From contig NZ_JMMA01000002.1 in NCBI RefSeq assembly GCF_000686125.1, forward strand, positions 3,286,001 through 3,350,000: a DNA stretch of 64,000 bases, read 5' to 3'. The notes beneath the pieces were generated by a model. That model saw only the letters and a program-made list of their open reading frames with translations, made no database searches and was not told the origin of the DNA. The translations under genes were made by a program, and so were the position numbers. The first letter of the stretch is position 1, and every line of letters starts with the position of its first letter. Of the stretch, positions 8,462-18,480 are shown piece after piece. The stretch is from Ruminococcus sp. NK3A76. GTDB taxonomy: Bacteria > Bacillota > Clostridia > Oscillospirales > Ruminococcaceae.

Positions 8462-9310
8462 TTATCCTTTGGTAAGTGTGCAGACGACTATCTCCGACGG
8501 GTTGTTTATCCTGAATTTGCCAAGGCCGGAGGTGACTATCATCTTTGAATCGTCCCTGAAATATGTGCCCTTGGTGTATTTCGGGAAGAACCTTCTCTCG
8601 GGCGAGAGCACTCCGCCGAGCAGCGGTATCCTTACCAATCCGCCGTGACAGTGCCCCGAGAATACAAGGTCTGCGCCCCAGTCGGCATAGCCCTCAAAGT
8701 AGAGGGGGTTGTGCGCAAGCAGAATGTTGAATTCCTCCCTGTCGCACTCGCCTAACAGCTCATCAAGACATTCCTTTGTCACGGGTGTAAGGTTCCTGTA
8801 GCTGCGCCCCTGGTGATAGCTCCCTACAGGCGGCAGCAGGCCTGTTATCTTTATCCTGTCGCCGTTTCGGCAGATGTATTCGCTCATGTTTCTCAGTATC
8901 TTTACGCCCATGCGCTCTATCCTGTCGCAGATGTACTGCGCATTTAGCGGATTGTCCTGCTCGTGGTTGCCGAGTATGAAGTATACATCGCAGATGTTTG
9001 TCAGCTTTTCTATCAGAAACAGCTTCGCATCAAAGAAGCGCCTGTCTTCGCTGCGTGAGATAAGGTCTCCGGTAAAGAATATGATGTCCGGGCGGCAGGC
9101 CTCGCATGAGCTTATGAGGTTGCCGTTTAACTCCCCGAAGGTCTTTGAGTGCAGGTCGCTCAGATGCAGTACCCTTGCCCCTTCAAATCCCTCAGGCAGA
9201 CGCTCGTGTCTTACGGTTATGCGGTGAACATCGAGCTGCCTGTCGTGGATGTATATCCCTGCCGCCGTGAAGAAAGCAGCGGCCATGCCTATTTTTGCAA
9301 TGTTTTTCAA
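8462..9310 (-). CDS. Calcineurin-like metallophosphoesterase, membrane-anchored
   Basis: 282 residues with the metallophosphoesterase signature in order: LSDLHSKTFG (about 49), FFTGDLISR (about 78), LGNHEQDN (about 117), LLAHNPLYF and FSGHCHGG (about 220). The last third (SPERRFFPKYTKGTY) matches the YaeI/YkuE type, which in characterised members acts on lipid pyrophosphates such as UDP-diacylglucosamine. An N-terminal hydrophobic stretch (about 4-19) probably anchors it outside the membrane. The substrate here is not known. It starts 17 bases after the patatin-like gene stop, so the two probably share a transcript. Confidence 0.85.
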   Translation of the reverse strand: MKNIAKIGMAAAFFTAAGIYIHDRQLDVHRITVRHERLPEGFEGARVLHLSDLHSKTFGELNGNLISSCEACRPDIIFFTGDLISRSEDRRFFDAKLFLIEKLTNICDVYFILGNHEQDNPLNAQYICDRIERMGVKILRNMSEYICRNGDRIKITGLLPPVGSYHQGRSYRNLTPVTKECLDELLGECDREEFNILLAHNPLYFEGYADWGADLVFSGHCHGGLVRIPLLGGVLSPERRFFPKYTKGTYFRDDSKMIVTSGLGKFRINNPSEIVVCTLTKG

Positions 9311-9327
9311 TGCCGATTACTCCGTTT

Positions 9328-10176
9328 CTATTTTTCAAGATATCTGATAAGGTTTTTCATCTCGTGTTCGGCGTGGGCGTAGCCGTAATCGTAGAGCCGC
9401 CTGAGCTTTGCACGGTCGTTCTCTGTGCGGTTTACGCCGAAGGTGTGCTTGGGGGAGAAGACAAAGACCTTGCCCTCACGCCGCAGCTGTTCAAGCTCGG
9501 CTATGCATTCGTTGTAGCGCTGCGCCCTTGTGCGCATTGTCTCTATCAGCTCAGGGTATTTTCTGTAGCGCTTTTCTATGAGCTTTAACAGCGGCTCGTC
9601 CTTTTTGACATAGCCCCTCGGACGGGTGAGTATCACGATGTTCTTGTCGCAGCCTGACTCTATCATGTGCTTAAAGGGTATAGAATCCGCAAGGCCGCCG
9701 TCGAGATATTTCTTGCCGTTTATCTCTATCATCGGAAAAAGCATCGGCAAAGCGCAGCTTGCACGCAGCAGCATGAAATCCTCATCATCTCTCGGGCATT
9801 CAAGATACTCCGCCTGCCCTGTCCCGACATTTGTGACAACTGCCTCGACGCTGCCTTTAAACTCCGCAAAGGCTTTCATGTCAAACGGCAGCAGCTTGCA
9901 GGGAATGTCGTGGAATGCGTAATCCAAGTTGTAGTAGCTCATATTCGACGGGCGCAGAAGATGATGTGCGCCCATGTATTTTTTTGTAGGCATGAAGTCA
10001 ATTGCAAGCGAGAGATTGCGCCCCTTTTGTTTCGAGATGTATGACACCCCGAACGCTATGCCTGCCGATACGCCGATAAAGCGGTCGCACATTATGTCAC
10101 TTTCTAAGAATCTGTCAAGTATGCCGCAGGAATAAACCGTCCTGCTCGCACCGCCCTCGCAGGTAATACCAAGCAT
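9328..10176 (-). CDS. Patatin-like phospholipase
   Basis: 282 residues starting at the ATG at 10176, which has an AAAGGAG site seven bases upstream. A longer open frame continues upstream only because it translates the repeats there. The catalytic dyad is visible: the nucleophile Ser in GVSAG (about 43-47) and the Asp in DGGLADSIPF (about 155). A glycine-rich oxyanion region (CEGGASR) lies at the N terminus. It resembles bacterial YjjU/RssA-type esterases of unknown substrate. The metallophosphoesterase gene follows 17 bases downstream. Confidence 0.85.
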   Translation of the reverse strand: MLGITCEGGASRTVYSCGILDRFLESDIMCDRFIGVSAGIAFGVSYISKQKGRNLSLAIDFMPTKKYMGAHHLLRPSNMSYYNLDYAFHDIPCKLLPFDMKAFAEFKGSVEAVVTNVGTGQAEYLECPRDDEDFMLLRASCALPMLFPMIEINGKKYLDGGLADSIPFKHMIESGCDKNIVILTRPRGYVKKDEPLLKLIEKRYRKYPELIETMRTRAQRYNECIAELEQLRREGKVFVFSPKHTFGVNRTENDRAKLRRLYDYGYAHAEHEMKNLIRYLEK

Positions 10177-10256
10177 AATACTGTCTCCTTTATGATTTTT
10201 CTTTGCTATGAAAGTGTTTCTGAGATGAATCGGAATTTGCAGCGGCGCAGCCGCTG

Positions 10257-10320
10257 CAAATTCAGGTAACAGGTAACAGTTGAGGTGTCCGCCTTTGGCG
10301 GACGATATGTCCATTCGGAC
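10257..10320 (+). repeat. Modular intergenic repeat, plus orientation
   Basis: Two to three heptamers (GGTAACA) are followed by GAGGTGTCC, a GCCTTTGGC hairpin closing to GGAC, then GATATGTCCATTCGGAC. The part order is the same as at 42724-42798. Confidence 0.7.
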
Positions 10321-10368
10321 TCTCAACCTAAGTATTTTGCTCATAATAGGAAATATCGTCACCCAAAC

Positions 10369-10450
10369 AGCCCGAATGGGCATCTGTCGGCGCAAGCCGA
10401 CACATTACCTGTTACCTGTTACCCGTTACCTGTTACCTGTTACCTGTTAA
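10369..10450 (-). repeat. Modular intergenic repeat, minus orientation
   Basis: On the minus strand about six AACAGGT heptamers (one with a base change) are followed by GTGTCGGCTTGCGCCGAC, AGATGCCC, ATTC and GGGC. Together with 10257-10320 it forms a head-to-head pair filling the 10177-10471 gap. No gene is seen in this gap. Confidence 0.7.
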
Positions 10451-11815: not shown

Positions 11816-11867
11816 AACAGTTTCCCCTCTCCCCGAAACGGGAAAAGGGGAAGAAATTATCAAGTAT

Positions 11868-12320
11868 TTAAGAAGCCTCGCTGCTCGTGTCGTCAGATGT
11901 GTTGACTATCGAAAGGCCAACGCCCTCAACAGCAGCCTTTGCATCAGCCATAGCATTCTCAACTGCGCCGTCGTCCTTGAGCTCTATAACTGTCTTGTCC
12001 TTGTCGAGCTCCGAGAGCTTGGTCTTGAGGTCGTCAAGAGTCAGCTCTGCGCCGTCATAAACGTATGTCGAGCCCTTGACTGTAACTGTGACTGTTGTCT
12101 TTGTGGTCTCTGTGTTGCTGTCGGAAGTCGATGCCGCAACGCTGTCGCTGCCGCTTGACGAGCCGCCGCTGCCCTTGCCGAAGCCGAAGCCCAGGCCTAA
12201 GTAATTCATCAGCCATAAAAGTGCCAGTATCAGAAGTAAAAGTATCAGGAACAGTATCGGCCCCTTGCCCTTTTTCTTCTTGTCCTTTTTGCGGTCTCTT
12301 TCATCGTATTGCTTTGCCAT
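11868..12320 (-). CDS. Membrane-anchored protein with ExbD-like C-terminal domain
   Basis: 150 residues. A Lys-rich cytosolic N terminus (2-20) precedes one membrane helix (about 22-45), a Gly/Ser/Thr-rich linker (about 46-80) and a C-terminal domain (82-140). That domain's pattern (VTVKGSTYVYDGAELTLDDL, then VIELKDD, then a helix) resembles the extracytoplasmic domain of ExbD/TolR. The membrane helix lacks the Asp that ExbD uses for proton flow. It is the last gene of the ExbB/ExbD-like operon, 21 bases after the ExbD-like gene. The role is inferred: a non-conducting partner or sensor of the channel. Confidence 0.55.
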   Translation of the reverse strand: MAKQYDERDRKKDKKKKGKGPILFLILLLLILALLWLMNYLGLGFGFGKGSGGSSSGSDSVAASTSDSNTETTKTTVTVTVKGSTYVYDGAELTLDDLKTKLSELDKDKTVIELKDDGAVENAMADAKAAVEGVGLSIVNTSDDTSSEAS

Positions 12321-12341
12321 TGTTTTTCACCCTCCTGATAA

Positions 12342-12857
12342 TTATTTTATTGACGTATCAATATATCCTATGTATATATTGTCATTTTCCTTTGACAGCT
12401 TGTCAAGCGCTGCCCTTATGCTCTGCATATCACGGAAAAGCACCTTGTTGCCGTCGTAGATAACAGCCGCCAGCACCGCCGAGCCCTCGGGTATCTTGAT
12501 GTTGGTGACAGCACGCTCTATCTCCTCGGTCTGCTCAAAGCCCAGTCTGTCAAGCTCCTCGCCTGCGAATGAGAGCACAAGCACATCTGATGTCTCGTCA
12601 AAGCTGATCTTAAGCTCGTAGAGCTCGCCGCCCTCAAAGCCTGTCAGCGCATCTGCAAGCATCTTTTCCTTTTTCTTTTCCGTTTCAAGCTCCTGCTTCA
12701 TCTGCTCGGTCTGAGCCTGTGCCTGAGCTATCTCCTCGTCGGCCTTTTCACGGTAGTTCTCGCTCTGCTGGCTCGACTGCATCATCACGAAGAAAAGCAT
12801 TATCAGTATGACATCAAGCAGCGAGGTGAGCTCGATGATTATGCCCTTCTGCTTCAT
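12342..12857 (-). CDS. ExbD/TolR-like protein
   Basis: 171 residues. The N-terminal membrane helix IIELTSLLDVILIMLFFVMM has the single intramembrane Asp (about residue 15) typical of ExbD, TolR and MotB proton-conducting helices. It is followed by a Gln/Glu/Lys-rich coiled coil (about 28-68) and a small globular domain (about 75-165) that would lie outside the membrane. It overlaps the upstream ExbB-like stop by 4 bases. Known ExbB-ExbD complexes use proton flow to drive work across a cell envelope. No TonB or outer-membrane receptor is expected in this organism, so the driven partner is unknown. Confidence 0.7.
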   Translation of the reverse strand: MKQKGIIIELTSLLDVILIMLFFVMMQSSQQSENYREKADEEIAQAQAQTEQMKQELETEKKKEKMLADALTGFEGGELYELKISFDETSDVLVLSFAGEELDRLGFEQTEEIERAVTNIKIPEGSAVLAAVIYDGNKVLFRDMQSIRAALDKLSKENDNIYIGYIDTSIK

Positions 12858-13372
12858 GATACCGCTTCCTCGTCCCTTTTGGCCTTCCTGCCCTCCCAGT
12901 TGCGCTGGAGAAAGAGCGCCACGGTCTTTTCGTTATCCTCTATCTTGGCCGAGATAACGCCGTCAAGGAATTTGAATATGATAGCGAACACCAGCCCCCA
13001 GAAGGTGGAGGTGAGTGCTGCGTAGAAGTTGTTCTGTGCGTTTGACATATCGTCCATAACAGACAAAAGCGACGCCACAGTGCCTAAGATACCGAGCAGA
13101 GGGAAAATACCCGTGAGGTTTACAAACACGCTGTAGAGCTTGCCGCAGCGTGTGCGCATCTCGGTGAGCTCAGTCTCGGTGAGCCTGTTTACAGCTGCCT
13201 CGGCCTGCGCCTTTGAGTCGTCATTGTCGGGTACAAAAACGGTAAGATGCATTTTCCTGTAAAGCTCGTTTGCAGCAGCGAATGCAAAGTAGTAAACGAC
13301 TGCGTTCACGATGCCTGCAAGGAATATCACAGCATCAAACCCTGCTATATTTGAAAAAATGACACTAAACAT
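12854..13372 (-). CDS. MotA/TolQ/ExbB proton-channel family protein
   Basis: 172 residues with three predicted membrane helices: about 10-34, and a pair at about 100-125 and 135-158. The pair carries the family pattern GIFPLLGILGTVASLL...FYAALTSTFWGLVFAI, with the conserved Gly/Ala/Thr positions lining the channel. It is the first gene of a three-gene operon with an AAGGTGA ribosome site and its own promoter at 13414-13442. It is shorter than ExbB and has no long cytoplasmic tail, so it is not a ZorA-type defence motor. Confidence 0.75.
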   Translation of the reverse strand: MFSVIFSNIAGFDAVIFLAGIVNAVVYYFAFAAANELYRKMHLTVFVPDNDDSKAQAEAAVNRLTETELTEMRTRCGKLYSVFVNLTGIFPLLGILGTVASLLSVMDDMSNAQNNFYAALTSTFWGLVFAIIFKFLDGVISAKIEDNEKTVALFLQRNWEGRKAKRDEEAVS

Positions 13373-13413: not shown

Positions 13414-13442
13414 ATAATAACACATATTTCAGAAAAATGCAA
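13414..13442 (-). promoter_or_regulatory. Promoter of the ExbB/ExbD-like operon
   Basis: TTGCAT (13437-13442) and TATTAT (13414-13419) on the minus strand with a 17-base spacer, about 40 bases upstream of the first start codon. Confidence 0.6.
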
Positions 13443-13455
13443 TAGTAAAATAAAG

Positions 13456-13484
13456 AAAAAGCCCTGCACAGTGCAAGGCTTTTT
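13456..13484 (-). terminator. Terminator of the dockerin operon
   Basis: AAAAAGCC..TGCA/TGCA..GGCTTTTT stem with A and T runs on either side, placed just beyond the stop of the last dockerin gene (13495). Confidence 0.8.
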
Positions 13485-13494
13485 GAGCTTTTGG

Positions 13495-14706
13495 TTATCT
13501 GAGCGTTACCTTCCAGCCGGCAAGATACTGCTTTAACAGCAGACCGTCCTTAAGGTCTGCCTTGCCGTCGTTGTTTACGTCGGCATTGCTCTCGTTTATT
13601 GCGACCTTCCAGCCGGCAAGATGCTGACTTATGAGCAGGCCGTCTTTGAGGTCTGTATTCCCGTCACCGTTCAGATCACCCGGTATACGGCCGGGCAGCT
13701 GGTCGAAGTAGAATCTTACATACAGCTTCTGCATTCCCGAGGAATTCGTTACTGTGGCAGACACGCCGTTTACTGTTGCCGAGCCTTCCTTGCCCTCTGC
13801 CGTGCTGTCAAAGAATGTGTTCTCATCAAGAGTCATCTCAATGGACGCTGCGTATTTTCCGCCCGGCAGGAACTTATCGCCCTTGAAGGAAGTCACGCTG
13901 CCGCCTTTGTCCTGGTAGGTACACCACCTTACAGAACTGCTTGCCAGGCCGCCGCAGTTGAGCTTTATGCTTGCCGCAGTCGCAGGTGCTGCCCCGACAG
14001 TAGGTGCAGTAACGGTTATATCCGCCCTGTCCGGGAATGAGGAGGTGGTGTTTACATAATGCAGCACGACCGACCTTGATGATGCAAGTTCTGTGTATGT
14101 GCCGCCCGTGCTTAAGCCAAGGGCAGTCACGGATATGGTGTAATCGCCTGAGCGCATACCTTTCATGTGGTCGCTCAGCTCCTCGTAAAATGAAAATGCG
14201 CCGTCTGTTTCTATCAGATCATTTACAGTGAAGCTTGTGTGGGCGGAAGCCCCTATGTCGATGTTTATGCGGTATGCTTTAGCGCCTTCGTAGCCGTTCC
14301 AGTGAAGCGTGGTGCTGCGGAGTATCCTTACACCTGTCACCCTTTTGAGGGTAAAGGTCTTTGTCTGCGTGCCTGTGAGGGCTTTTCTGTTATTGTCGTA
14401 GGCTGTGAGCTTTGCTGTGTATTCTTTTCCGCCTGTCGCATAGTCTGAAAGATCAAAGCTCTGCTTGCTGCTGCCGGTGTCGGGTATGTCTTCTATGTAG
14501 ACATCGTGCATATTGTTTTCTTCACGCAGGATAAAGCGGTAATACGCAGCACCTTCCACCCTGTCAAATGAGAGCACGCCGTCATAGCTTACCGTTAAGT
14601 TCTTTATCTCATCAAGTGCCTTTGCCTTAAGCACGCCCTCCGGCAAAAACGCCCCGAGGGCTATCACCAGCACGAGTGCTGTGAGCAGCGATAAAGCCTT
14701 TTTCAT
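13495..14706 (-). CDS. Secreted dockerin protein, fibronectin-like middle
   Basis: 403 residues. A signal peptide (1-30) contains LALGAFLPEGVL-like residues shared with two other dockerin proteins in the window. The middle (about 35-335) is beta-rich with FN3-like stretches (SFDRVEGAAYYRFIL; LHWNGYEGAKAYRINI) and no visible catalytic motif. The C-terminal dockerin (about 341-403) has two calcium-loop segments, DLNGDGNTDLKDG and DVNNDGKADLKDG, each followed by a helix with the L-A-G-W-K motif. Dockerins attach proteins to cohesins of a cellulosome scaffold. No cohesin is seen in the window. It is the last gene of a minus-strand run; the gap to the upstream gene is 21 bases. Confidence 0.85.
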   Translation of the reverse strand: MKKALSLLTALVLVIALGAFLPEGVLKAKALDEIKNLTVSYDGVLSFDRVEGAAYYRFILREENNMHDVYIEDIPDTGSSKQSFDLSDYATGGKEYTAKLTAYDNNRKALTGTQTKTFTLKRVTGVRILRSTTLHWNGYEGAKAYRINIDIGASAHTSFTVNDLIETDGAFSFYEELSDHMKGMRSGDYTISVTALGLSTGGTYTELASSRSVVLHYVNTTSSFPDRADITVTAPTVGAAPATAASIKLNCGGLASSSVRWCTYQDKGGSVTSFKGDKFLPGGKYAASIEMTLDENTFFDSTAEGKEGSATVNGVSATVTNSSGMQKLYVRFYFDQLPGRIPGDLNGDGNTDLKDGLLISQHLAGWKVAINESNADVNNDGKADLKDGLLLKQYLAGWKVTLR

Positions 14707-14727
14707 ATCGTCTTTCCCCTTGTATCT

Positions 14728-16620
14728 TTATTTGAGCACTACCTTCCACCTTGCAAGATACTGCATAAGAAGCATTGCATCTTTGAGGTCTGCCTTTTTG
14801 TCGCCGTTTACGTCTGAATTCTCAGCTATTATCTTTACGTTCCAGTTTGCAAGATACTGCTTGAACATCAGCCCGTCCTTAAGGTCTACCCTGCCGTCGC
14901 CGTTCACATCGCCTGCCAAGCGAAGGTCAAAGGACACGCCGTTGACCTCAGCGAGGTTTCTGAGCATCTGGTAAAGCTCGGTGTTCGTTGCCTTGCCGAG
15001 GGGGTCTATCATCTGTTCTTCCCTGGGGGCTCCGGGCTCGCCTTTGCCCTCCATGATGTCGTATGTGGCCGACCAGCATATAGCCTCCCAGTGGTCAAAG
15101 TCTATGTCGTAGTAGTCAAGGTAATCATCGCTCCTGCCGAAGTCGATAGACCTCTTGTAGCCCATGTACTCGGAAAACCTCATCAGCATGAGCGCTGCGT
15201 CCTGCCTTGAAAGCCATTTGCCTGCGCCGAAGGTGTCTGCCGACTTGTAGGGGTAGCCTACACAGATGTTGTGTGCCTCTCCCCACAGCAGCGCTGCCTC
15301 ATACGAAGCGCCTGCCTTTACGTCTGTGAACCTTGTCTTCAGGCCCTTGACACTCGGGCTGCCTGCCAGCTTGTAGAGCCGCTGAACGAATTCCTCTCTT
15401 TTCACAAGCTCCCTTGTGTCAGAGGGCTCCTTCTCCTCAGGGTAGGCGGGCACAGGCTTTGTGGCGGTCGTGCTCAGCTTTACCTTGTCGTCAAAGCACA
15501 GGAAGAATATGCTGTCGCCCTGCGTCGAGTCGTCCTCGCCGTAGTCTATCGTCCACGAGTGACCGTCGCAAACGTCGCCCTCGTATACCTTGACACCCTC
15601 CTTGTAGGTCTTTACAAGATATGGGCAGTCGCCTATGTTAAGTGTTGTGAATGGGTTTGTGAATGCCTGTAAAAAGCGCAGATTGGGGTTGTTTGATACA
15701 TCGAGCTTGCCAAGGCCGTTGCAGGCGCAGTCAAGATACACCAGCTTCGGGTTGTTTGAAAGGTCAAGCGTCTTTATCTGATTGTAGCCGCAGCTTAATT
15801 TGTTGAGCTCCGGGTTGTGGCTTACATCAAGGCTCTTGACACCGTTGTATGCGCAGTTGTAATACTGCAAGCCTGTGTTCTTGCTTATGTCTATCTCGCC
15901 GAGCTCTGTGTTGCCCCATATGTCAAGGCGCTTTAGCTTTGTAAGCCCTGTCACGTCGAGCTTTGTGAAGTGGTTGTACATAGCATCAATGTGCGTGAGC
16001 TTTTTGTTGTGTGTGAAATCGAGCTTGTCGAGCTCGCAGCTTGCGCATATCAGATGTTCAAGGTCTTTGAAAGGTGAAAGGTCGAGCTTTTTTAAAGGGT
16101 TGTCGCTGACTTCAAGGTATGACATTTTGGTGTTTTGTGCTATGTTCAGCGTGCTTATGTTGCAGTCAAAGCAGTAAAGCCATAAAAGCTCCTTGTTCTT
16201 TGAGAAGTCAAGGCTTGTGAACTTGTTGCCCGAGCACCATACGCCACGCAGCTCGGTGTTCTTGCTTACATCGAGCGTCGTCAGCTCGTTGTCGGTGCAG
16301 TATAGCCCCTGCAGCTCAGTGAACACCTCTATGCCCTTCAGCGACTTGATGTCCATGCCGTCGCAGTATATGTTGCGTGCAAGAGTTATCTCCTCATCGT
16401 CAAGATAAGTGTCGCCGTTGCGGTCGTAGTCTCTGGTGGATATCAGCTCCATGAATGTTTTATCGGGGAAAGTCTTGCTGTCGATCTTTATGCGTGCTGC
16501 GGCTTTGGCTGTGAATGTGTCAGCCACACCGTCAAGCGGCACAGAGCTGCTGCCAAGCGCCATGAGCATCGCCATGCCGCCGGCGATCACCTTTGAGATC
16601 CTGCTGCCTGCTTTTCTCAC
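14728..16620 (-). CDS. Secreted leucine-rich-repeat protein with SLH-like region and dockerin
   Basis: 630 residues. An Ala/Met-rich signal segment (1-43) is followed by about eleven leucine-rich repeats of the LTTLDVSKNTEL type (about 85-330). After a beta region comes a segment (about 395-560) with RFTDV...AALLWGEAHNICVGYP and FGAGKWLSRQDAALML that resembles S-layer-homology repeats. A dockerin is at the end (about 567-630, DVNGDGRVDLKDG and DVNGDKKADLKDA). Such repeats usually bind proteins or wall polymers; no enzyme domain is visible. A protein with both a wall-binding-like region and a dockerin could tether something to the surface, which is an inference. The gap to the next gene is 21 bases. 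Confidence 0.85.
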   Translation of the reverse strand: MRKAGSRISKVIAGGMAMLMALGSSSVPLDGVADTFTAKAAARIKIDSKTFPDKTFMELISTRDYDRNGDTYLDDEEITLARNIYCDGMDIKSLKGIEVFTELQGLYCTDNELTTLDVSKNTELRGVWCSGNKFTSLDFSKNKELLWLYCFDCNISTLNIAQNTKMSYLEVSDNPLKKLDLSPFKDLEHLICASCELDKLDFTHNKKLTHIDAMYNHFTKLDVTGLTKLKRLDIWGNTELGEIDISKNTGLQYYNCAYNGVKSLDVSHNPELNKLSCGYNQIKTLDLSNNPKLVYLDCACNGLGKLDVSNNPNLRFLQAFTNPFTTLNIGDCPYLVKTYKEGVKVYEGDVCDGHSWTIDYGEDDSTQGDSIFFLCFDDKVKLSTTATKPVPAYPEEKEPSDTRELVKREEFVQRLYKLAGSPSVKGLKTRFTDVKAGASYEAALLWGEAHNICVGYPYKSADTFGAGKWLSRQDAALMLMRFSEYMGYKRSIDFGRSDDYLDYYDIDFDHWEAICWSATYDIMEGKGEPGAPREEQMIDPLGKATNTELYQMLRNLAEVNGVSFDLRLAGDVNGDGRVDLKDGLMFKQYLANWNVKIIAENSDVNGDKKADLKDAMLLMQYLARWKVVLK

Positions 16621-16653
16621 TTTTCATACTCCCTTTCGGTTTTCTTTTGTCTG

Positions 16654-18480
16654 TCAGACAAGCTCTACCTTCCAGCCTGCAAGGAACTGCTTAAGCAGCA
16701 GGCCGTCCTTAAGGTCTACCTTGTTGTCGCCGTTTACATCGGCGCTGCTAAGGTTTATCTCTACCTTCCAGCCGGCAAGGTGCTGACTTATGAGCAGGCC
16801 GTCTTTGAGGTCTATCTTAGTGTCGCCGTTTAAGTCGCCGGGGGTGCGGGCTGATGCTTTCTTCCATACAGCCTTTATCGTCCTGTCGGCGGTTATGCTT
16901 ACCTTGTCGCCGGGCTTGCCAGGCTCCCACTTGTCAAATACCATGCCGTCAGGCGCTGTGTAGCCGCACTCGGGCAGTGTCAGCTTGTCGCCGGAAGCTA
17001 CATATTCCTCCTCCATGTAGCCAAGGCCGCCGTTTGCATCATATATAACGGTGTATACTGTCTTGTATTCCGCCTTTATCTTTACATCGCCTGCCGGCAT
17101 TGTGAATGTAGTCACTTCCGAGGTGGCATCATCAAGCTTTACATTGCCGCTTACCACATTCCACTTCTGGAATACCAGTCCCGAGCTTGGCGGCGGGTCT
17201 GCTATTATCTTCATCTTAGTGCCCTTGGCAGCTTCGTATTTGCGCTGCGAGCCGTTTGTTGCTGCATAGGGTGCGCCGCCCTGTACTACTACCGCATATG
17301 ACGAGCGGTTTGCATCAGTTTTTCTGAATACAGCCGTGTAGGTCGTGTTGCCATTGACGGAAACTCTAATGTTTACCTGATTGATGTACTGCCTCTGGAG
17401 CTGCGTGTCCTCTATCCAGTAAACAAACTCGTAGCCCTCGTTGGGGTCGGCAGTGAGCATGGCTGTCTCGCCGGGCTTGTAGTACCAATCGTCATAGTGG
17501 CTCGTTTCCATAGCAATGCCGCCCTCAGCAGGTGATGCTACTACATTTATCTGATACTTAGCGCCCGAAGCCTTGTACTGCAGATAAAGGTCGGTGTTCT
17601 TTGTGATAGGTGTCGAGAAATCGAACAGGTCATCAGCGCCGTTGCGCTTGTAAAGGCTCCAGCCTACGCCGACATAGGGCTTGTAAGTCTCGCTGATGCC
17701 GGGTGTGTCGGTATAGGGCTTGACAGTGTCGCCGTGTTTTACGGTCACCTGGTTTTTGTAGTCGTATTCGTACCCTACAGAGCTGTTCTCAGCAGGCACT
17801 ATGTCGTGGAATGTCACGGTATATTCGTTTATCGCAAAGTGTGCCGTGTATGTGCCCGAACCGTTTGCTTTTCCGGAAAAAGAGGCGATCATTCCGTATT
17901 TCGGCGGGTATGCACGGTTCTGCTCATCAAGGCGGTCATCTTCTGCATTTGTCACGGGGTACTGCCAGTAGTCAAAGTGATAGCCGGTGTTTGCTTTCTG
18001 ATAAAGCCTGAATGTGTGTCCTTTCTGAGCGCCTATGCATATCTTCGTGCCCCAGAAGCTGTTGACACCTTCGATATCTGTGCTTATCATGCCGTTGCCG
18101 GCAGTTGTGATAGTCTGCTTTAAGTAGCCGCTCTTTAGTTCAAAAACAGCCGTGTATGTGGTCTTTTCGACACAAAGGTTGCGTATGCTCTTTGATGTGC
18201 TTATGATCGTGCTGCTGCTTCCCTTGCGCCAGCCCTTGAACTCATAGCCGTTGCACGGAGCTGCATATATCGTGACATAAGCTCCCTCTGAGTATGATGA
18301 GAAGGCGCTCGTGTAGTAGTTCTCGTTGTCAAAAGATACCACACCGCCGTCAGTCGCAGTCAGTATCTGCATATATGATACCGCTGCATCAGCCTTTATG
18401 CCGAGCACGCCCTCAGGCAGGAACGCCCCGAGTGCCAGCACCAGCACAAACGCTGTCAATAGTGACAATATCCGCTTCAT
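16654..18480 (-). CDS. Secreted InlB-like-repeat protein with dockerin
   Basis: 608 residues. The signal peptide (1-32) is nearly the same as in two other dockerin proteins here. Several Listeria-Bacteroides (InlB B-repeat-like) modules follow, recognisable by GYEFKGWRKGS, GYHFDYWQYP, GYEFVYWIED, GLVFQKWNV and YDANGGLGYM...MVFDKWEPGKPGD. The dockerin (about 545-608) has DLNGDTKIDLKDG and DVNGDNKVDLKDG. No catalytic motif is seen. The modules are beta-grasp folds thought to mediate adhesion. It lies 33 bases upstream of the leucine-rich-repeat gene and is probably co-transcribed with it. Confidence 0.85.
   Translation of the reverse strand: MKRILSLLTAFVLVLALGAFLPEGVLGIKADAAVSYMQILTATDGGVVSFDNENYYTSAFSSYSEGAYVTIYAAPCNGYEFKGWRKGSSSTIISTSKSIRNLCVEKTTYTAVFELKSGYLKQTITTAGNGMISTDIEGVNSFWGTKICIGAQKGHTFRLYQKANTGYHFDYWQYPVTNAEDDRLDEQNRAYPPKYGMIASFSGKANGSGTYTAHFAINEYTVTFHDIVPAENSSVGYEYDYKNQVTVKHGDTVKPYTDTPGISETYKPYVGVGWSLYKRNGADDLFDFSTPITKNTDLYLQYKASGAKYQINVVASPAEGGIAMETSHYDDWYYKPGETAMLTADPNEGYEFVYWIEDTQLQRQYINQVNIRVSVNGNTTYTAVFRKTDANRSSYAVVVQGGAPYAATNGSQRKYEAAKGTKMKIIADPPPSSGLVFQKWNVVSGNVKLDDATSEVTTFTMPAGDVKIKAEYKTVYTVIYDANGGLGYMEEEYVASGDKLTLPECGYTAPDGMVFDKWEPGKPGDKVSITADRTIKAVWKKASARTPGDLNGDTKIDLKDGLLISQHLAGWKVEINLSSADVNGDNKVDLKDGLLLKQFLAGWKVELV

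Follow-up and report, generated by a model that had tools for sequence, protein, structure and literature searches.

Motors of the ExbB-ExbD type power outer-membrane transport in Gram-negative bacteria. For Gram-positive bacteria, a review of the 5:2 motors describes the function of Ton orthologues as untested (PMC9389320), and a survey from 2025 considers the Ton systems of monoderms likely to be non-functional (PMC12204202). Here we analyse a set of three genes, hereafter the cassette, that encodes an ExbB-like channel protein, an ExbD-like axle protein and a third protein with a predicted ExbD-like domain. We found no description of this three-gene set in the open-licence literature. The cassette lies in what we call the window, the stretch of 64,000 nucleotides from Ruminococcus sp. 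NK3A76 (genome of 3.56 Mb, two contigs) that was analysed. That this is an ion-motor operon in an organism with neither an outer membrane nor TonB is well supported. We also think it rather probable that the cassette is a stand-alone ion-driven motor of the 5:2 type that belongs to monoderms, in which the ExbD-fold third protein carries force to the wall or the surface.

The three-gene locus

A first-pass annotation of the window had placed three minus-strand genes at 11868-13372, and these coordinates proved to be exact (Table 1). The genes are tightly packed. The stop codon of the exbB-like gene and the start codon of the exbD-like gene overlap by 4 nucleotides (ATGA), and a gap of 21 nucleotides separates the latter from the third gene, whose ATG is preceded by an AGGAGG site.

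Table 1. Features of the cassette and its flanks, in window positions
Feature	Position	Strand	Description
exbB-like gene	12854..13372	-	172 aa; ExbB/MotA/TolQ-family channel protein; PF01618 match
exbD-like gene	12342..12857	-	171 aa; ExbD-like axle protein; PF02472, invariant Asp, AlphaFold2 model
Codon of intramembrane Asp15, motif LTSLLDVILIMLF	12813..12815	-	read from the sequence; invariant in the alignment
Third gene	11868..12320	-	150 aa; ExbD/TolR-fold domain in the AlphaFold2 model
Putative promoter of the three-gene operon	13414..13442	-	TTGCAT-17-TATTAT, upstream TG (extended -10 type); assigned from homology and position
Intrinsic terminator of the upstream dockerin gene	13456..13484	-	13-pair stem and T-rich tail
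Terminator-like hairpin directly 3' of the third gene	11822..11852	-	14-pair stem, weaker T tail

The channel and axle proteins

The first protein matches the MotA_ExbB model of Pfam (PF01618) at 4e-13, over the curated cut-off, and by this domain it is a member of the ExbB/TolQ/MotA superfamily. Three transmembrane (TM) segments, with limits taken from hydropathy, lie at about residues 12-35, 83-106 and 117-142, and the cytoplasmic loop is short. Two threonines, Thr98 and Thr123, are invariant in the alignment (28/28 homologues); when aligned to TM2-TM3 of E. coli ExbB/TolQ, they fall on the threonines that E. coli ExbB has in these two segments. In a maximum-likelihood tree that has several long branches and leaves out AglR, ZorA and GldL, all 30 of the 30 cassette ExbBs form one group (support 94/89), apart from 37 MotA and 7 ExbB/TolQ sequences, and with midpoint rooting this group branches nearer to MotA than to ExbB.

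The second protein matches the Pfam ExbD model (PF02472) at 3e-4, which is below the curated cut-off, and 15 of 27 homologues match the same model at E<=0.01. The intramembrane Asp is kept in all 27 aligned ExbD-like proteins and in both of those from outside the family (29/29). Loss of this residue in homologues, which had been named beforehand as refuting a motor, was therefore not seen, and the channel and the Asp-bearing ExbD-like protein of the first-pass annotation are both borne out. In the AlphaFold2 model a single helix (residues 6-75) comprises the TM segment with Asp15 and a long stalk, and it is followed at 79-167 by a predicted extracellular b-b-b-a-b-a-b domain that resembles the domain of the third protein. 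A coiled-coil test of the stalk gave a mixed heptad signal. On VIA realignment to PDB structures the modelled domain scores Z 7.8 with TolR and Z 7.0 with ExbD, values with which unrelated folds tie.

The third protein

The third protein had been described as ExbD-like, with a Ser/Gly stalk and without the Asp, and this description stands in each part. Its own match to PF02472 is weak (0.03, Pfam), and three divergent members match, weakly but independently, the NCBIfam model ExbD_2 (0.0018, 0.0031 and 2.5e-4). A basic N-terminus is followed by a TM helix at 20-40 without charge, a Gly/Ser/Thr stalk at about 41-72 and a domain at 75-140. AlphaFold2 models the domain at a pLDDT of about 95 and residues 47-68 of the stalk at under 50. 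Plain Foldseek E-values are not significant for either the axle or the third-protein model; VIA realignment is clear for the third protein only, where the top seven PDB chains are all ExbD or TolR (Z 9.2-7.0) and the best unrelated chain scores 6.8. We conclude that the extracellular domain of the third protein has a predicted ExbD/TolR fold. At the level of sequence, hhalign gave no useful match between the third-protein profile and the single E. coli ExbD and TolR sequences, and detected no similarity between the ExbD-like and third-protein domains.

Some loci carry more than one protein of the third type. Tandem second copies occur at L119:8426-8941(-) and L124:8045-8482(-), and in these a lipoprotein-type signal (ATGC and VCGC ahead of the stalk, lipobox read by eye) replaces the ordinary TM segment. 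These lipoprotein-like copies suggest that the ExbD-fold domain probably works outside the membrane and, in some cases, does so without a TM segment of its own. A second copy with a TM segment is found in L118/L030, and the third-type proteins of L036, L038 and L039 have two N-terminal hydrophobic segments, not one.

Could the third protein serve as a regulator, or as a second subunit of the axle? In either role its domain would pair with its counterpart in the ExbD-like protein, to make up an asymmetric axle that has a single Asp or to gate the channel. The predicted ExbD-type fold, the adjacency of the genes and their co-conservation fit this reading, and it has parallels in that ExbD/TolR domains dimerise and AglQ/AglS pairs exist (PMC12905483, PMC9389320). 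We nevertheless consider it unlikely, since the TM segment lacks the Asp and its motif in all aligned members, the stalk is predicted to be disordered where that of the ExbD-like protein is predicted to be helical, and a channel could not admit the lipoprotein paralogues of L119 and L124. We prefer to see in the third protein a carrier of force.

Transcription and neighbouring genes

The putative promoter, with its TG before the second hexamer, is found 5' of exbB in 7/7 species of the genus, despite differing upstream genes; the window copy did not pass a consensus promoter scan. This conserved promoter and the flanking terminators indicate that the motor genes are a transcription unit of their own, outside the dockerin operon. 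The first-pass annotation had named that operon as the neighbour. Its dockerin genes are real (Pfam), but we rejected an operon link with the cassette and see no support for a special one: a terminator lies between them, the conserved promoter serves the cassette alone, and sister species have a gene other than a dockerin gene as the upstream neighbour. The adjoining genes (13495-18480(-)) encode three dockerin proteins in a row, of which one has leucine-rich repeats and another InlB-type repeats, none with a catalytic domain recognised by Pfam, and are preceded by a DUF6935 gene.

Across genomes, dockerin richness and the cassette do go together to some degree. At least five dockerins are found in 20/32 carrier and 4/37 non-carrier genomes (p 9e-6), and at least two in 8/14 carrier and 3/26 non-carrier genera (p 0.007), statistics that ignore relatedness and use a non-random sample of non-carriers. 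Because there are exceptions in both directions, and because of shared ancestry, we take this association as only a hint.

Directly 3' of the cassette, a gene for a patatin-like phospholipase (with DUF6363) and one for a metallophosphoesterase are found in several genera, in the window (8462-10395(-)) and in L041, L105, L108 and L110, often accompanied by an M20 peptidase; in L105 the third gene ends inside the beginning of the patatin gene. Possibly there is a lipid-related partner here, or only synteny; these genes are absent from the distant loci, and we have set them aside as partner genes and read them as synteny. Among the neighbourhoods inspected, no conserved neighbour gene names a cargo, and none is conserved outside related genera.

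A stand-alone cassette of this kind, with no conserved neighbours beyond related genera, might also be an ion-motor-based defence or sensing system that exerts no force on the envelope, as ZorAB is an example of such motors in defence (PMC12905483). We regard this as quite improbable. With PADLOC the window proteins gave no ZorA or ZorB match and nothing above chance (e.g. ZorD1 at 0.006 on the ExbD-like protein); a ZorA2 match of one distant ExbB (0.011) is likewise at chance level. There are no adjoining effector genes and the ExbB-like protein has no long tail. PADLOC thus gives no support to phage defence, and a motor acting on the envelope remains our preferred reading.

Distribution, conservation and selection

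The cassette is present in 7/7 species of the genus examined. The near relatives that carry it are Ruminococcus MAGs, most of them from the ruminant gut. In the family, 38 of 298 sampled genomes have a match to the ExbB profile, eight of which were set aside because the open frame is at least as long as MotA (256-530 aa); this leaves carriers in about 30/298 genomes and 14/126 genera (counted from the table of matches). An order-wide draw of 295 genomes and a class-wide draw of 341 genomes each added one short relative from another family, in both cases with the ExbD-like and third genes present. Searching 398 genomes of the phylum with the ExbD profile returned, besides the copy in the window, seven weak matches which, where readable as ExbD, sit in canonical ExbB-ExbD-TonB-type operons. 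No match was found on plasmids. The cassette is therefore patchy and concentrated in the Ruminococcaceae.

Where it occurs, it is kept together. Conservation of the three-gene set had been proposed as a check, and all three genes stand in the same order in 32/33 family loci, or 34/35 with the two loci from outside the family. A lone ExbB-like gene is found at L029:1489-1998(-), with the other two not adjoining and an SGNH-hydrolase-like gene beside it.

The statement that there is no outer membrane and no TonB here also holds for the carriers at large: TonB_C (PF03544) is found in 0/35 carrier genomes and the outer-membrane marker Omp85 (PF01103) in 0/31, with positive controls for both. These absences rule out the cassette as a Ton system. 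Might these instead be Ton genes that are relict or misplaced and serve no function, as has been proposed for the monoderm Ton genes termed likely non-functional (PMC12204202)? The patchy spread over the genera of the family would agree with this. Within the genus, on the other hand, dN/dS is 0.04-0.12 for exbB, 0.08-0.15 for exbD and 0.06-0.24 for the third gene, with synonymous sites near saturation for distant pairs. Such strong purifying selection and the invariant Asp and Thr speak against decay. The promoter is conserved, TonB is missing, and the ExbBs form a clade separate from ExbB/TolQ, all of which make a relict very improbable.

That the cassette is an alternative flagellar stator, an idea to which the common superfamily and the midpoint-rooted branching nearer MotA lend themselves, we dismiss as having next to no probability: it is contradicted already by non-flagellated carriers (17/35 lack FliG_C, among them nearly complete genomes from several genera), the host encodes its flagellar MotA/MotB pair elsewhere, and the ExbD-like protein has no OmpA-like peptidoglycan domain (no PF00691 match in Pfam).

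A proposed mechanism

On what might an envelope motor act in a cell with one membrane? As there is no outer membrane, the motor must act elsewhere, probably on the cell wall or surface. From homology one would expect the ExbB-like and ExbD-like proteins to form a 5:2 ion-driven motor. We infer this stoichiometry, as well as the flow of ions, the rotation, the docking of the third protein and a wall or surface target; a pentamer of the ExbB-like protein would surround two copies of the ExbD-like protein as a dimer, ions would enter past a site formed by Asp15, Thr98 and Thr123, and one part would turn against the other. The axle would depart from ExbD and TolR in its long helical stalk, which would rise above the membrane and bear the putative ExbD-type domain.

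The third protein would be a force receiver or tether. Its gene takes the position that TonB has in other Bacillota operons, and its topology is TonB-like (a basic N-terminus, one TM segment, a flexible stalk), ending in a predicted ExbD/TolR-fold domain. Position, topology and fold together make it the likeliest receiver of force, and most likely it couples the motor to peptidoglycan or to a surface structure. In these single-membrane gut bacteria the motor set is complete, conserved and under selection, and its Asp offers a defined residue for mutation, so that the role of an ion motor in the monoderm envelope becomes a directly testable question.

Comparison with known systems

The Ton system shares with the cassette the three-gene order, an Asp-bearing ExbD-like axle, a stalked third protein with a single TM segment, and, as predicted, the ExbD-type domain fold. 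In contrast, the cassette has no TonB or outer membrane, its ExbB falls in a different clade, its third protein has a predicted ExbD/TolR fold and no TonB domain, and its axle has a predicted helical stalk. Distant members of the phylum have canonical ExbB-ExbD-TonB-type operons (L128, L129, L132, L133 and L135); two of them, L129 and L132, have a TonB-type gene in third place, where the cassette has its ExbD-fold gene. With Tol-Pal (TolQ-TolR-TolA) the cassette has in common a motor pair, a third single-TM protein and a predicted TolR-like domain; it differs in having no TolA-type helical stalk and no outer membrane, and no TolA, TolB or Pal was found in the cassette neighbourhoods inspected.

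The flagellar stator MotA/MotB has the same channel superfamily, to whose MotA the cassette ExbB is nearer than to ExbB in the tree, and an Asp in the TM segment. The cassette, unlike the stator, has no OmpA-like domain, occurs in carriers without FliG and has the extra third protein. The AglRQS motor of Myxococcus, likened here by its description, also joins one channel protein to two ExbD/MotB-type proteins; there the Asp is present in AglQ as well as in AglS (PMC9389320), whereas the third protein of the cassette lacks it. Zorya ZorAB belongs to the same 5:2 motor family, and the cassette differs from it in having no ZorA-type tail, no neighbouring effectors and no PADLOC match above chance. 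As a tentative proposal, the cassette may be a third branch of ExbB/MotA-type motors, one dedicated to the envelope of monoderms, where the part of TonB or TolA as the carrier of force to the cell wall or surface would fall to an ExbD-fold protein that sometimes has a lipoprotein paralogue.
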